DNA from: Armigeres subalbatus | Taxonomy: Eukaryota > Arthropoda > Insecta > Diptera > Culicidae | Direction of reading: 5' to 3' | DNA length: 64,000 nucleotides | Assembly: GCF_024139115.2 (NCBI RefSeq) | Contig: NC_085141.1 | Coordinates: 370,163,925 to 370,227,924, forward strand | Shown: positions 9,483 through 62,054 of the stretch, piece after piece | How the letters are laid out: every line of letters starts with the position of its first letter | How positions within the stretch are numbered: the first letter of the stretch is position 1 | Notes under the pieces: model-generated | What the model saw: the letters and a program-made list of their open reading frames with translations, nothing else | What the model was told of the DNA's origin: nothing | The model's database searches: none | Program-made: the position numbers and the translations under genes

Positions 9483-11531
9483 TCCAGCTTTCCACGCTAG
9501 CCATAATGGCGGCTGCTATAAATGAATGTGACAGTAACTGCTTCCGACGCTAAACTGTAATCGACGCTGATTGTATCTAAGCGACCATTTTCATATTGTT
9601 TATTAATTATTTTCAGCAAATGCAAGGTTCGAAGAAAATGAATAAGATTTTCAAAACTACCATTCGAATAGTATTATATTACTAATACCCATTTTCGTTT
9701 TAGGTTGTAGTAATTATCTGATACACTAAAAAGCCAAAAAAATCGGCTTTTGTGACCATGTTGCTGTATAATTTAGTTATGAGAAGAACAAACTCAGATA
9801 ATGATAAATGCATCGCAGGACTGGTTCAAATAATAATTTCCCACACTTAACTTCTGGTTCTCAGTTGTTTCTATTAAAACTAGAAGAGAATCATCGTTTG
9901 AAATCATGTTTCCGAGTTCATACAAACCCTCCAGTATATGAATCAAAGGTGATCCTCATCGATTCTCTATCAACACACTCGGCCTGTTTGATTATTTTTC
10001 CTAGCTTTGCACAGCCAAGCGCACAGTTCTTTAACTTCTACATCTAAACGATTCATTTGTATATTACGGCCCTCAAAGGACCCGTCCAGTGGACGATATC
10101 GGTCATGAACCTCCGTTTGGCAGAAGCTTCAAAAGGTAAACGGGCTTTCGGAAACAAATTAATCCAAGAATATATAATTTTAGGCAGAAGGTTATGCTTC
10201 GTATTGCATTATCAAATTTTGGGTCTTCCATACGAATCTTCCATTTTATATGCATATTTCTTAGAAGAATCTTAGCATCTTCATATTAGGCACATGTAAC
10301 TCCGAAATCATCGTACGATTTTTTTCATCCCATTAGCGTTTTGGATTTGAATAAAGATTATATTGGCAAGCGATCATTAAATCAGGATTTTTTTCATATT
10401 TTTTGTTCGTGTTTACAATTTACTGTCTGTAAATACAGATCTTGGAAAAAGGTTTATGCTATTTCATTTAGTTCTATCAATTAATTAAACTGTCTAGAAT
10501 AGTAGAGCGTTATCTGTACAATGGTTGATTTTGCGCTTATTGACCATTACTATTACTTTCACTTTATTGTCACATCGTATCACGCTAAGAAAAAGGTTTT
10601 CACCGCTCCCACTATGCGCCATGACATCTATTGCAAATAACTTTTTCGTACACGGTTATCAATCAAGGAACTAGGACCGTCCAATACTTGGTATGTTTGA
10701 TCAAAACATAGAATTGTGCAGTATGGGGAATAGTCATGAAGCTGGAATCTACATGTAGGAACTCCATACCATAGGTCGAGCCATAGGTATACGCATCGCA
10801 ATTAATGAACAACGCCGAGTTTTGTCACTCGGATAATAGGGGGAAAGACGGCTTTGGCAGGTTTTGTTCTATTATTGGCAGGGGTTTTTTTGTTGACCAA
10901 ATTTTATGAAATTTGACCACAATATTCTTTGATATGCAAAGAATGTTTAGGCCAAATTAGTCAGTCATAAAAAAAACCCTGCCAATAATAGAACAAAACC
11001 TGCCAAAGCCGTCATTCCCCCTAATATTATTGATTTTATTTGCATTCAAATCTGCATTCAGCTGCACATCGGTGTTCATTTAGATTGGTTTTTAGAGAAA
11101 CAAGCTAGCATTCGATATCCAGAACACACAGCATGGTGCACCTTATCATCTAATTCCAATCTGAACATATCCAAACTGCTCGCCTTGAATCTTACGGCAT
11201 GCCGGAATTGATTTGGACTTAGCTGAGTTAGCTCTTCTCATACATAAATTGTACATCAACAGGGTAACAAAAGGATAAATTGTTAGCTTGTTAGTGTATG
11301 GGAGAAGTACTTCAACCTGAAACGATAATGGGTATTAAATGCAATAATCAAAACTAGTTACGAAAATATTATCCATTTTCTTCGAATCTTGCCTTTGCTG
11401 AAAATAATAAATAAACAATGTGAAAATGGTTGCTAAGATACAATTAGCGTCGATTACAGTTTAGCGTCGGAAGCAGTTACTGTCACATTTATTTATAGCA
11501 GCCGCCATTATGGCTAGCGTGGAAAGCTGGA
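9483..11531. mobile_element. 2-kb element with ~210-bp inverted termini and TA flanks
   Basis: Starts TCCAGCTTTCCACGCTAGCC and ends in its complement. The arms (about 9483-9705 and 11,325-11,531) match at roughly 90%. TA dinucleotides flank both ends (9481-9482, 11,532-11,533). It splits the LINE between codons for ...D-A-I-Y and T-D-L-S-S-A-F-D-K. The interior has no recognisable transposase; the frames at 9808-10,275 are short and featureless. Another copy of one terminus is at 40,875-40,972. A TA target suggests a Tc1/mariner-type donor, but the long arms are unusual. Confidence 0.85.
10839..11021. mobile_element. Hairpin MITE, 183 bp, TA flanks
   Basis: Inverted termini GGGGGAAAGACGGCTTTGGC and complement, matching over ~45 bp through TTCTATTATTGGCAGGG. 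TA precedes (10,837-10,838) and follows (11,022-11,023). It lies inside the 2-kb element at 9483-11,531. Confidence 0.85.
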
Positions 11532-14049: not shown

Positions 14050-15170
14050 AGATGTACTTGCCTATATAACAGCTTTCACTTCCTATATGTGCTTTTGCAT
14101 CCTCGATGGCAATTCTTATATCGTGTGTTAGGCACCCTTCGTAAGCCTTATCCGTAGGCTATCATAGAACGCATCTTCCACGTTATCAGGCTTATCGTTC
14201 GTTGAGGCATGAATGCTGACCAGGCTGTACTTGAAGAATTTGCCCTTCATTCATTACACGCAAATGCAATCGCCTATCGGCTTTCACCGGATAATTCGCT
14301 TTATCTGCTTCCCGATCACCATGAAGCCAATTCTACGATCTGAAGTGCTGCTCTGTATGTATTAAGGTGGCTCAAAAAACACTTTTTCAAATTTTTTGAT
14401 GGGCCGCCCTCTTATTCGGCTCTATTTGATGCCCTGATGCTCTGGACAAAATTTTAGCCAAATCGGTCAACGTTTGGGCAGTGCTAAACTCGTTGGAAGT
14501 TTATATGGAAAAATGTATGCAGACACATCCAAAAACAGTGATTTGCAGTTGGACGGCACAATTTAAGATCTAGAACCATGATACTCATTCAGTTCTTGTA
14601 AAATAAAATACAGAATGTTATGCTGAAAACCGCGAGAAGATTAGAGTTTATTAGGCAAAGATATTAGCATTTTATTGGAGTGTTGTAGGGGTGAATTCAT
14701 TTCTTTTCAAAGGTAAAAGAAACGAAATTTGCTCAAACCCCACTGCAGAGAAATGCTAATAACTTAGCCGGGCAAACTCGAATCTTCTCGCGGTTTTCTG
14801 CATAACATTCTGTATTAAATTCTCCAAGATCTGAATAAGTATCATAGTTCTTCATCGTAAGTTGTGTAGTCCAGCTGCAATTTACTGTTTTTGGATGTTT
14901 CTGCATTTTTCCATATAAACTTCCAACGAGTTTAGCACTGCCCAAACATTGACCGATTTGGCTGAAATTTTGTCCAGAGCATCAGGGCATCAAATAGAAC
15001 CAAATAAGAGGGCGGCCCATCAAAAAAATTGAAAAAAGTTTTTCCCATACTAATTTGAGCCACCCTAGTATGTATGCTCAACTTTTGCCTTTCTTGGTAA
15101 CTGTAGAATCTTCGGTGGGCTAGCTTGCCACGGTTGCGCAATCTACATCGCGTTGAAAGGGCTGTATTTT
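14050..15170 (-). pseudogene. Second LINE endonuclease fragment (RTE-like), interrupted
   Basis: Minus-strand pieces on both sides of the insertion at 14,363-15,067 join into an endonuclease segment. I-G-F-M-V-I-G-K-Q lies near 14,330, G-K-F-F-K-Y-S-L-V-S-I-H-A near 14,240, and D-I-R-I-A-I-E-D near 14,120. The order matches the RTE endonuclease at 56,193 (G-R-L-F-N-Y-S...I-V-I-G-D-M-N-A-Q), so it is a related but different LINE. Frameshifts are frequent. Only this part of the element is present. Confidence 0.6.
14363..15067. mobile_element. Palindromic (foldback) element, 705 bp, perfect 8-bp duplication
   Basis: Ends TAAGGTGGCTCAAAA and complement GAGCCACCCTA. GTATGTAT occurs immediately before (14,355-14,362) and after (15,068-15,075). 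The two halves are near reverse complements over about 300 bp each, leaving a small centre around 14,700. 8-bp duplication suggests a hAT-type donor. Frames inside mirror the palindrome and are not genes. Confidence 0.9.
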
Positions 15171-32029: not shown

Positions 32030-32034
32030 CGATG

Positions 32035-32556
32035 CACAGTGGCAGAAAGTCGGACAAAACCTCAAAATTTTCTTTTCGTGATTTTTGTTTTTAATTTAAC
32101 ATATATATTGAATGAGCTAGTTCCGAAATATTTTGATTGTAGCTTGTAAATTTAATTTTTGGTGTCTTGTTGAAGTTCATTCCGTAAAGTGTCTCCCGAA
32201 CAAATATGTATGGGAAAATGAAATTTGGGAAAACTTTGTTGGGAAAGATACGAAAAGATCTGATATTATGTATGAACATCTATTTTTTTGTCTACTTTCC
32301 GGTGGTTAGTGTGGTGAATTGCGCATAGCTGCGCCAAAGCGGGAAATTGACTGGTGCAATGTTAGAATGAGGACGCTGTCTTTATTCTAGATGCTAGGGC
32401 TTGGGCTTGCGGAAGCTTTTGTATGTCGGATAGGAAGTATGTCGGATAACCATTTTCACCTCAACATGAATTCAACGTTTCAAAATTACTCTGTGGTGAA
32501 GTTTTGAACGCAATCTCAGGTTTTGTCCGGGATTTGTACGAGCGCCCGCCACTGTG
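32035..32556. mobile_element. Transib-like non-autonomous element with 12/23 RSS-like ends
   Basis: The left end is CACAGTG (32,035-32,041), a 12-bp spacer (32,042-32,053), then ACAAAACCT (32,054-32,062). The right end, read inward on the minus strand, is CACAGTG (32,550-32,556), a 23-bp spacer (32,527-32,549), then the same ACAAAACCT (32,518-32,526). CGATG flanks both sides (32,030-32,034; 32,557-32,561). CACAGTG is the consensus heptamer of V(D)J recombination signals, and the nonamer agrees with ACAAAAACC at 7 of 9 positions. Transib elements are known for CAC(A/T)-type ends and 5-bp GC-leaning duplications. The 522-bp interior has no transposase frame. The family call is inference from the termini. 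Confidence 0.8.
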
Positions 32557-32561
32557 CGATG

Positions 32562-35500
32562 TTCGGAATCGCAAGCAAACCTAGTCAGATAAAGAAAAAT
32601 CCAAAACTGGTGTCGTTTTGTCGGTGGTTTGAACGAAGTTGGGAATTCCAAATTTGAATAAATATGATCGATGACTCGAATTGCTATTAGCCTTATTGGA
32701 ATTGCTATTAGACACAAAACCTTTACCACTACCTCCTGCAATCAATAATTTGAGCAAAAACAAAATTCTCGGAATTCAGTCAAATGCTCGATTATGGATG
32801 GAGTCCCTTAAGAACAAGCCTCACGAAATCCAAAACTAAATGCACTCGGGTTTTCATCGTCTTGTTCTGAAGGAATCCTTTATATATTCAATTGTTTTTT
32901 TTTGTAACAGGTTTCGGAAAACTCTGAAAAACTGGTCTATTCGGCAGTTAAAATTAAGACCAACGCATATAAGATATTGATGTGAAAATTATGAAATATT
33001 CATTATATGCCTTAGATTATTCAACATACATCTTTGAACAAACAACTATTTGAATCAGTTATTAAACTAAATAACAAAATTGTTCTTATAGCGTAATTCT
33101 TAACTTCAGTGCCTCCTATAGGCTGGCACCCTTGATGATGACCAATCACACGCTACTGCGCAGACTGCACGATATTATTTTAAATCAACAAATGCGTAAT
33201 TTCATTTCTAATAAAAACATTGAAGAGGTATGTAGAAAACTGAATACGCATTCATTGTTTCAGAATGGTATTGCGTAGTAAACGTATATCGAATATATTC
33301 AACGGGGCAGCCGAAATTTTTTGATAAGATGATGTTTGCTGTTAATTAAAATTTGTTTCGAAATCCCGCGGAGTTTCGTTTCATTTTGTTAAATCCTAGT
33401 TCTTGCCGACGAAATTTTTGGAATTTAACTAAACGGAGGGAAATCAAAAGAAATCAGATCTCACTATGCTTAAATTCCGCGGAATTTCGTTTCGATTCAC
33501 TTGGAACGATTTTTTTTTTTCGATATACCGCATATCCTTAATAGCAACATAAAACCGCGCATCCTCGCCCTTCATATAAATTATCTTTGTCGATCAGTCA
33601 AGATCAGTCATCATATTTCCACACTCTCAAATGCGTCCACTGGGTTTCCACTGCGTCTGAAGATGTCACAAACAGTTGAGAGTGCCACCTCCCTCGAGTC
33701 AGCCTTGAAAGTGATGAACTTTTCGGCCACGACGATGGACGATCACCGTCCAACACCACGGCGATGATGGACTGGGACAGTGCATAATTTGCCGTTTGTG
33801 AGATTGGGTACTTTAAAAACGATAATACAGCAGCACATTTGAAAAAAAAAACCCACCGCCACAGAGAGTGACGTACGCGCCGCCGTTGTCACCGAAGGAA
33901 CGCTTAACCTTTCGGTTGAAAATCCTGCGCGCGGTTATGGGGCAGCGAGCAGACTGCACACTCTGACTGAGTGAAGGGAGAGCTGCAGAATGAGACACCA
34001 GAAAATGCAGTAAACATAAACAAATAGTTGGCATTCCCTAGACGGGACCTCGTCCGCGTGCATGTGTCCCAGTTGCCACTCCTTCGTCAATGTATGTTTT
34101 CGTGGCTTTGCCCTGGCACAGTGGGATAAACCCAGTCGCAGATTTTGTCGATATTTTTAACTAAAATGTGCAATAGGTATTTGCTGGATTTCCTTTCCTT
34201 ACATACCTACTTGTGGAATCTTTCAAATTGGTCAATAAATTACACTACAGGAAACCGATAACAAAAATTACTTCCTACGTCTTATTTTTTTTAGGTATTT
34301 AGCGTCGACGATAGCTAGTGGATTTTCGTCAACTCGTACAATAATCACACTGGTTAATTTGGACATATTCTACTCGCCGATCCCGCTATGCGTAACATTA
34401 TCCACCGTAAACACGAGACGGAGGAGACTCAACAGTTACTCGCATCACCGACTAGCAGCGATTCAAATGAACAATAAAAATGAATGCAACTGAAAGACCC
34501 ACCGAGCCAACGGTCCCACAAAAAAGTACTCCCAGGAATGCGTCTGCCCTACTACTGCCGCCGTTGTTGTTCGTTTGAGCTCGAGAATTGTTGTTGCTGC
34601 TGCTGATGTGGTGACCGAGCTGAGCGCATCAGGCACTGTGCGGTTCGTCTCGTCGGTAAACATTTGGTGTTCCAATCCAACAACTGCCATCCGAGAATCA
34701 ACCATGTAGTAGCAGACAGCCGCAGAAACGCAATGCCAGCAATTTCCGTTCGGCCCGTCCCCCGAAACGGAGCGTGCGGATGATCGAAGGTATCAGGATC
34801 GAGACGATGCATCGACGACAACGACGCCGACATCAATGCTGATGATGGGGCTGTCCCCCTGTACTAGATGTGCATTTAGCGGTCGTAAAAATAGCCGACG
34901 ACATGTTGTATGGGACAAATTGATTGTTTTGCTGGTGTGGCGTGATTTTCGGTTTTGGCGGGCTGCATGGTTTCACTGAAAGCAATCTGATAGCTTGAGA
35001 AGTCGAGATATGAGGGATGGCACTTTTAACTTGTCAATTGATGAAATTTGAAAGTACAGAAAATCATAAACATAGTGAATCCTGCTAGTGCTCTGCTCTC
35101 ATAGAAGAGACACACATATGCAACTCTTTGTACAGACTTTCTTCTACCTTCCCATGCAACCTTTCCGTTTTAACACCCATGTGATTATTTTCATCTCTTT
35201 AATGTTGCACTTTCACAAGGAGTATGGATATGAAGCAGTGAACGAATTTATTTTAAGAAATATATTTTTGTATACATAATTCCAAAGTTTCTTTCCCTTA
35301 AAAAATGGGGCTTGTGACGTAAAATTAAAACAAAAAATGACTGAGATTTAAATTAAATTCTTTTGATGTCCATATTGTTAGCCGCTACATGATCTGATTT
35401 TAATCAATTTCGTTCGCCTACAAAATGCAACCATTTCTTGTGAACTCTACAAACCAACTTCGAGCCTTAAAACGCTTTCTCACAACGAATCATAAAGCAA

Positions 35501-59416: not shown

Positions 59417-61343
59417 GTCCTAGGTGTACGATGGTCGAAATTCGTCAGGGAAAACCACGATGTCCCCGTCTCCGACATAGTGTTTTGGACGGACTCCAGG
59501 ACAGCACTGGCCTGGATCAAGTCAGATCCTAGAAATTATCGGCAAACCGTGTCCTTCAGAGTAAGTGAGATTCTGGAGCACACAACAGCAAGTCAGTGCG
59601 ATGGGTGCCATCATCGTCCAACCCAGCGGATGAAGCAACTAAATGGGGCACTGGACCATACTTTCACCACGACAGCAAGTGGTTTCAGGGGCCCAACTTT
59701 CTTCGGCTTCCGGAACACGAGTGGCCCCGCTCCAAAGAGCCGGTGACTGTTACTAGTGACGAAATGCGTACGTCAGTTCTACATCACTGTTCGTTCCAAC
59801 CGCCGATTGATTTCGACCGGTTCTCATCCTGGGATCGCCTACAACGAGCAACAGCATACGCTCTCCGATTCATACACAATTCGGCCCAGAGGCGTCCGAA
59901 ATATACGGGACAACTGCAACAAGCAGAGCTACGGGCAGCAGAGGAAACCATTCTTAGGTTGGCACAGCGGGAATCATATCCAGATGAGATAGCAGCACTA
60001 TCGAATAAAGCGCCGAACGAGACCGGGCAGGAGATCATCGGGAAGCATAGCTCCATCTACCGACTGATGCCAATCTTGGATAAACACGGCTTGTTACGAG
60101 AGCGCGGCAGGGTCGGCGCGGCAGAGGACGTCTGCTACGACGTGCGCCACCCCGTAATCCTACCGAGAAAACACCGAGTAACGGAGCTTCTTGTACATCG
60201 ATACCACCACCACCTTCGCCATGGCAACGCGGAGACAGTAGTTGACAAACTTCGTCAGCTGTACACTATCCGTAGACTCCGCGCGGTGGTCAAGTAAGTC
60301 AGCCGTAACTGCGCTTATTGTAAGATCCGTCGGGCTAGGCCGGCGAACCCACCAATGGCACCACTTCCAGCTGCGCGCCTGGCACATCATGAACGAGCCT
60401 TCACGTATACCGGGGTGGACTACTTCGGACCACTGTTGGTGAAGTTGGGAAGATCCAACGTCAAACGATGGATCGCATTGTTTACATGCCTGACAGTGCG
60501 CGCCGTTCATCTTGAAGTCGCTTATACGTTATCCACAGAGTCCTGCATTTCCTGCGTCCGTCGATTCGTGGGTCGGCGGGGACCACCCGCCGAATTTTTC
60601 AGCGACAACGGAACAAATTTCCAAGGTGCCGATCGAGTGTTGCAGCACCAGATAAGCCAGGGACTGTCAACAACGTTCACCAGTACCAACACAAAGTGGA
60701 ACTTCATTCCGCCGGGAGCACCACATATGGGCGGGGCATGGGAACGCTTAGTGCAGTCAGTGAAAGCAGCGATGGGCGAAGCGTACTCCGAGGAGAAGCT
60801 GGATGACGAGGGGCTGCAGACACTGGTCGTGGAGGCGGAAAGTATAGTCAACTCAAGGCCTCTGACGTACTTATCACTTGAATCCGAGGAAGCAGAAGCA
60901 CTCACTCCGAACCACTTTCTGTTGCTGAGTTCAAGTGGAGTGAAGCATTCAATAACCCAAACCGAAGAGGGCCCGCGAAGTGAGCTGGTTCGCCGAAAAA
61001 TTCTTGGGAGATCACACGAGCAAATCCGCACCAAGCTTGACGCTTTCTGGAAACGCTGGTTGGCAGAATACTTGCCGGTGATCCGTCGACAACCGAAATG
61101 GTTCGATGACACCAGAACGATGATCGCAGGAGACTTAGTGATGGTCGCGGAACCATTTAAGCGTAATGGATGGGAACGCGGACGAATTGTACGTATGATT
61201 CCGAGTGCAGATGGGCAGCATCGACAAGCCGTCGTGAAGATAGGACAGAAGAGTCTGCTGAGGCCGGTGACAAGGCTGGCGTTACTAGACTTGGAGGAAA
61301 AACGTGAAGTTCCGGAAGGCTCCGGACTACACCCGGGGGAGAC
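59417..61343 (+). pseudogene. BEL/Pao pol: RNase H end, integrase and C-terminal domain
   Basis: After the hAT insertion pol resumes with V-F-W-T-D-S-R-T-A-L-A-W-I (RNase H). It continues R-W-V-P-S-S-S-N-P-A-D-E-A-T (two frames meet near 59,600). The integrase zinc-binding region follows (H-H-L-R-H-G-N-A-E near 60,210; C-A-Y-C near 60,313), with a TAA at 60,295-60,297 between the His and Cys pairs. The catalytic core shows G-V-D-Y-F-G-P-L, F-F-S-D-N-G-T-N-F and G-G-A-W-E-R-L-V. A BEL-typical C-terminal domain ends near 61,370, overlapping the LTR. Apart from the nonsense codon, the 345-codon frame 60,355-61,392 is open. Integrase inserts the cDNA copy. Confidence 0.93.
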
Positions 61344-62054
61344 TGTTGACGCAGAAATGGTGAACTGGCCACCCTGCCACCGTCGTTTCTAAAGCGGCGC
61401 CGAACCTGTCAAAGCGGTGCGTTGTTCGAAGTGACAGACGTCAACGAGTGACGGACGACCTGTCAAAAACCATTTCCGGCCCTTCATTCTTTTTACGGTT
61501 CGCAGTAAAACAAAGTGCAGCTCGCGAGTGAAAAATAAAACCTTAACTAAAAATAGGATAATAAGTAGTGAATAAGTAGTTTATAGTGAATAGTGTGTAT
61601 TTGAGCCATATTCACACAGTGAAAGTGAAATACGTTGCGTTTGAGACGAGTTTATTAACTCAACCAATTGAGGTTAGTTTAGGTTAGTTTCTGAATCCAA
61701 GCCCTAATCATTGAATTCCCAGAGCATAGTTCGTTGTCCGAGTCCGCCGCCAGTCCGTTGATCCGTAGATACCTGAAAAGAGAAAGAAAAGTAAGAAGAA
61801 ATTAAATAGAAATAATCAAATACTAAAACTAAATCGAATAGGTCTTGTCTCACGTGGACGTAAAATCGAACCGTAGGGTGCGCAAACAAAGGGCACACCG
61901 AATTGTAAGAGCATTCTAATACTATCATGGAATATTGTATTATATTGTAGTTGAAGCAACAACAACAACACCAATAATAATAACAACAGAATACAAATAT
62001 CGTTCGCTATCAAAACGGCTCGCCTAATTATTTGACCCTATGACAGCCTTGACA
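61344..62054 (+). repeat. 3' LTR of the BEL/Pao element
   Basis: Starts TGTTGACGCAGAAATGGTGA right after the purine-rich ACCCGGGGGAGAC (polypurine tract) and ends ...CCTTGACA. About 711 bp. The pol stop lies inside it. The first 24 bp equal 57,620-57,643. Confidence 0.92.

Follow-up and report, generated by a model that had tools for sequence, protein, structure and literature searches.

The locus considered here raises the question of whether a short mosquito transposon can carry, at its two ends, an unequal pair of recombination signals of the 12/23 type, and whether such an arrangement is the property of a family or of a single copy. The window, by which we mean the whole stretch of 64,000 nucleotides analysed (Armigeres subalbatus, contig NC_085141.1, positions 370,163,925 to 370,227,924, forward strand), contains one such element of 522 bp at 32035-32556, which reads directly as CGATG-CACAGTG-12 bp-ACAAAACCT ... 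AGGTTTTGT-23 bp-CACTGTG-CGATG. The initial annotation had described exact heptamers, identical 9-mers, spacers of 12 and 23 bp and a duplication of CGATG, and all of these are present where it placed them; the match of 7 in 9 letters that it claimed for the nonamer is borne out for ACAAAACCT when compared with the recombination signal sequence (RSS) consensus ACAAAAACC. The features are as follows.

32030..32034, no strand: left target-site duplication CGATG, by direct reading identical to 32557-32561
32035..32041, plus strand: left heptamer CACAGTG of the 12-signal end, from the window sequence
32042..32053, plus strand: 12-bp spacer GCAGAAAGTCGG, a length shared by 81 of the family's 89 left ends
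32054..32062, plus strand: left nonamer-like word ACAAAACCT, 7/9 to the RSS consensus quoted in passages of PMC8289069
32063..32517, no strand: interior with no open reading frame of at least 150 aa, matching other copies in stretches at 75-94% identity
32518..32526, minus strand: right nonamer-like word ACAAAACCT, separated from the right heptamer by 23 bp, the best spacer at all 19 recognised right ends
32527..32549, minus strand: 23-bp spacer GCGGGCGCTCGTACAAATCCCGG, from the window sequence
32529..32537, minus strand: ACAAATCCC, a further nonamer-like word at a distance of 12 bp from the right heptamer, with 7/9 to the RSS consensus as well
32550..32556, minus strand: right heptamer CACAGTG of the 23-signal end, from the window sequence
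32557..32561, no strand: right target-site duplication CGATG, from the window sequence

With the 12-RSS and 23-RSS of vertebrates the element thus shares the exact CACAGTG, a nonamer matching at 7 of 9 positions and the two spacer lengths, a likeness in sequence. It differs from them in that its ends bound a transposon and not gene segments, and in that its right end carries two nonamer-like words.

An arrangement of this kind could in principle be a product of chance or a lone oddity, and the heptamer, which occurs 10 times in the window, speaks for this as long as it is taken by itself, being near chance expectation (5.3 expected; 6 of 100 shuffles reach 10). The combination of an exact 5-bp repeat, an inverted 7-mer and a common inner 9-mer, on the other hand, is found at three places in the window, as against two matches in total over 60 first-order Markov shuffles subjected to the same three-part search. 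Two of these places are symmetric elements with long inverted repeats, and only 32035-32556 has the common word at clearly unequal distances from its ends. The flanks of the element have no relative in the window or among the fetched loci. A candidate second copy at 34117-34640 of the window was rejected, having two heptamers without matching nonamers and without a duplication. Among the other features of the window are a short element flanked on both sides by TAATA, with long inverted repeats in register (10839-11021), which looks like an unrelated symmetric miniature inverted-repeat transposable element (MITE), a symmetric inverted-repeat element flanked by AAATT (14394-15025), and adjoining reading frames at 59569-61392, which by eye resemble those of a retroelement polyprotein that includes an integrase.

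The decisive evidence on chance comes from the genome as a whole, an assembly of 1.34 Gb in 2076 contigs, with three contigs of 319, 465 and 430 Mb. The pattern CACAGTG-N12-ACAAAAC occurs 396 times genome-wide, against 8 occurrences of a reversed-pattern control. Spacer classes were judged by eye among the 100 of these 396 matches that were listed, all on contig 1, where mostly three were seen: GCGGAAAGCCGG-like (the family of the window element), GCGGAAACCCAG-like and ATGCCACTCCAT-like. Forty of the 100 listed places were followed, comprising 29 GCGGAAAGCCGG-like or unclassed, 7 GCGGAAACCCAG-like and 4 ATGCCACTCCAT-like ones. Because the spacer is fixed at 12 bp in this search, the left ends of the family were searched again with the spacer left free, by means of the pattern CACAGTGG-N{2,15}-ACAAAACCTCA, which admits spacers of 3-16 bp and requires an exact heptamer and nonamer. 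This longer pattern occurs at 89 places and its reversed control at none; the spacer measures 12 bp in 81 of them, 11 in four, 9 in two, and 16 and 5 in one each. The window element therefore belongs to a dispersed family with dozens of copies in its genome. Given these counts and several independent insertions, each with a duplication of its own, we consider the probability of a chance arrangement or lone oddity to be negligible.

Right ends were studied in a sample of 30 loci, namely the window and 29 fetched loci on contig 1 whose left ends had been picked by the 12-bp pattern, by scanning downstream for a heptamer and nonamer with the spacer free between 5 and 40 bp. A recognisable right end was found in 19 of the 30, and in all 19 the best spacer is 23 bp, although the scan leans towards the 23-spaced word because the left nonamer served as its template. 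No convincing right end was found in the remaining 11 (L001, L017, L020, L022, L029, L031, L033, L034, L039, L040 and L041); L001, L017 and L022 gave chance-like matches at other spacers only, and L039-L041 have no interior in common with the window element. The proposal that the spacing is a constant of the family holds very nearly in the copies covered here, with 12 bp on the left and 23 bp at every recognised right end, and the nonamer recurs across copies as the initial annotation had anticipated.

The flanks of the same 19 copies bear on the superfamily to which the element belongs. Exactly 5 bp of flank are identical in 12 copies, and in none does the identity reach 6 to 9 bp, so that the recurrence of 5-bp duplications, expected from the window copy, is confirmed; six further copies have a duplication with one mismatch, and L003 combines a 23-bp right end with flanks that differ at three positions. 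When left and right flanks of different loci are mispaired, they agree in 9 of 342 cases. Two pairs of loci, L027/L028 and L025/L032, share their flanks, so that the copies represent about 17 independent insertions, 11 of which have exact duplications. The five-mers of the left flank are biased towards CGNNG (C first in 18/19, G second in 12/19, G fifth in 14/19). That the family might be a MITE of the hAT or another superfamily, whose ends merely resemble an RSS, has in its favour that heptamer-like ends alone are common and that hAT ends also carry CAGTG-like words. The duplications of hAT elements, however, measure 8 bp, a length over which none of the 19 flank pairs is identical, and both the two-part ends and the C-G-rich targets of 5 bp are in keeping with Transib, so that we regard a hAT-like origin as very improbable. 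The family has the 5-bp duplication, the C-G-rich target and the CAC heptamer with an A-rich nonamer-like word of the Transib superfamily, whose GC bias in target choice is stated in passages of PMC8289069.

Transib transposase genes are present in the same genome. The RAG1 Pfam model has 13 matches in it at E values up to 1, one of which reaches the cut-off. A reading frame at locus L049 matches the PDB chain 6pqn, listed as a DNA-mediated transposase and presumably the Helicoverpa Transib, at an E value of 7e-76, and a frame at L042 matches it at 3.7e-55; the L049 frame itself has at least 145 matches in the genome. The 129 transposase positions checked (16 additional fragments of these loci were set aside) all lie more than 20 kb from the 89 left ends of the family, the nearest at 23.5 kb. 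Seven of the 13 RAG1 Pfam loci were read with their flanks, and two of the seven gave clean ends with exact 5-bp duplications. The first, T48, is 3950 bp long, carries transposase frames, is flanked by an exact CGCTG duplication and has the ends CACAGTG-13-TCATAAATC and CACAGTG-23-CCATAAATA. The second, T53, is 3362 bp long, with an exact CGTCT duplication and symmetric 22/22 ends. T42/T43, 95% alike over 3.7 kb, were rejected as a clean 13/23 pair, since their 13/23-like ends have CACTATA/CACTATG and lack a clean duplication, and T45, T49 and T52, also among these seven, showed no convincing end pair. About 1.3 kb beyond the transposase frame of L049, on the 3' side of the gene, lies a 12-spaced CACAGTG...ACAAAAC end, whose partner was looked for and not found. 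L013 is 3747 bp long, with 12/23 ends and a duplication mismatched at one position; it was rejected as an autonomous copy, its frames by eye containing no transposase.

No transposase copy carrying exactly the ends of the window family was found among the loci covered; the transposase-bearing T48 has 13/23 ends. The assignment to Transib itself is supported by the 5-bp duplications, the spacing, the recurring nonamer, the abundance of Transib transposases and the 13/23 ends of T48.

A further question is which of the words at the right end is functional. The usual 12/23 layout, as we would word it, has one nonamer at each end, and the right end of this family departs from it by carrying two nonamer-like words, ACAAATCCC at 12 bp, which the initial annotation had not mentioned, and ACAAAACCT at 23 bp from the heptamer. 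The working ends of the element might accordingly be 12/12, or specific to each end in some other way, with the right end read through ACAAATCCC and the 23-spaced match a by-product of the shared ancestry of the two ends. Consistent with this, the two words match the RSS consensus equally well (7/9 each; consensus as given in passages of PMC8289069) and are equally conserved in the 19 right ends, at 161 of 171 letters each, and when one mismatch is allowed per word, 9 of 10 pairs with exact duplications score both as 12/12 and as 12/23. The 23-spaced word, however, is identical to the left nonamer, an identity which in the window copy spans 12 bases (CGGACAAAACCT), and T48 keeps a 23-spaced CCATAAATA at its right end while having, by eye, no A-rich word at 12. 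The identity to the left nonamer and the right end of T48 thus favour the reading at 23 bp, and we judge a 12/12 element to be unlikely.

Ends of the 12-bp type also occur outside the family. Seven loci of the GCGGAAACCCAG class were followed (L002, L005, L006, L007, L008, L012 and L016), in six of which a right spacer of 23 bp was found, tied with 12 in L005; none was found in L007. In the other six, homology extends far beyond the ends, and these copies are therefore embedded in a larger repeat rather than independently inserted. The related element with a 12-bp left end appears in these six as a passenger of a larger amplified repeat, and its right heptamer at 23 bp is mostly changed to CGCAGTG. 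No paired right end was found for the ATGCC class (L009/L004, L010, L011, L014 and the transposase-adjoining L049). L027 (4425-4535) and L028 (4000-4110) hold a 111-bp version consisting of almost nothing other than the ends, with an exact CAGTT duplication and shared flanks.

Taken as a whole, the window element is very probably a non-autonomous, MITE-like Transib copy in a mosquito, moved by a Transib transposase that is made elsewhere and pairs a 12-type with a 23-type end. We infer both the kind of enzyme and the pairing. On this view, a Transib (RAG1-like DDE) transposase encoded at another place in the genome would recognise both ends by their nonamer and heptamer. It would bring the left end, of the 12 type, together with the right end, of the 23 type, and cut at the heptamer, a RAG-like cut by a Transib transposase being described in passages of PMC6941560. 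The element would then insert at a 5-bp C-G-rich target, giving rise to the 5-bp duplication.

The two spacers of the family also offer a hint as to how the asymmetry may have originated. When the family consensus spacers GCGGAAAGCCGG and GCGGGCCCTCATACAAATCCCGG are aligned with a single 11-bp gap, 10 of 12 positions agree, and only 10 of 20000 shuffles align equally well, so that both ends resemble a single ancestral end, with a difference of about one helical turn. The same alignment gives 8/12 for the window copy alone (396 of 20000 shuffles) and 8/12 for the GCGGAAACCCAG class (347 of 20000), and in T48 and T42 the signal is absent (about 2000 of 20000 each). It is conceivable, though we hold it to be rather doubtful, that within this lineage of mosquitoes a 12-signal arose from a 23-type end when the spacer was shortened by about one helical turn (11 bp), turning a symmetric Transib into a 12/23 element favoured by a transposase acting without RAG2. 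A symmetric state is still present in the same genome, in the 22/22 ends of T53. The 12-bp left spacer could also be described as a frozen accident, in which one founder with an 11-bp deletion spread and the asymmetry has no role; the spacer alignment fits this as well, plain descent can explain constancy within one family, and 8 of the 89 left ends deviate from 12 bp. Spacers of 13 and 23 bp recur, however, at the mutually different end sequences of T48 and T42/T43, and 12/23 ends are reported from other insects in passages of PMC8355894, which makes an accident without function somewhat unlikely.

Ends of this kind have precedents. Passages of PMC8355894, after Kapitonov and Jurka (2005), list 12/23-asymmetric ends for Transib5 of Drosophila melanogaster and for Transib2, Transib-N1, -N2 and -N3 of Anopheles gambiae, likewise a mosquito; like the window family, these have a heptamer, a nonamer-like word and spacers of 12 and 23 bp (plus or minus 1), a likeness taken from their description. 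Most Transib families are said to have symmetric ends (PMC8289069, in part), and 12/23 spacing is said not to hold for the RAG-like gene pairs of invertebrates (PMC8355894, in part). Hztransib of Helicoverpa zea likewise belongs to the Transib superfamily and makes a 5-bp duplication (GCTCG), but is 3518 bp long with its own transposase (passages of PMC1852546), and its ends are reported to be symmetric and to bear little or no resemblance to a nonamer (passages of PMC8289069). ProtoRAG of amphioxus is also a RAG-related transposon with unequal end spacers, but these measure 27 and 31 bp (PMC8289069, in part), and it encodes RAG1-like and RAG2-like proteins (PMC7204232, in part). The iMITEdb database includes Transib among the insect MITE superfamilies, with an average of about 482 bp and a set that includes Aedes aegypti; its Transib MITEs are likewise non-autonomous and of similar size, and the relevant passages (PMC5199201) make no mention of 12/23 spacing.

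Both 12/23 ends of mosquito Transibs and insect Transib MITEs are thus already in print, in the passages of PMC8355894 and PMC5199201 cited above, and the window family is a clean further example. No 12/23 Aedes family is described in the titles and opening lines of abstracts among the Transib papers listed, nor in the Transib passages of PMC3442997 and PMC5248466; this comparison covered papers, and the family may already be catalogued in Repbase or iMITEdb. What is added here is the copy-number evidence for a near-constant spacing, the second nonamer-like word, the one-turn relation between the ends, and the co-occurrence of asymmetric and symmetric Transibs in one genome.

These observations address the origin of the 12/23 rule, for which this genome offers a 12/23 family, a transposase-bearing 13/23 copy and a 22/22 copy. 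If the proposed loss of one turn of spacer is true, a single indel created the 12/23 asymmetry within Transib, and one genome allows the two states to be set side by side. With these elements as natural substrates one could ask whether spacer asymmetry matters to a RAG1-like transposase that acts on its own, in the absence of RAG2.
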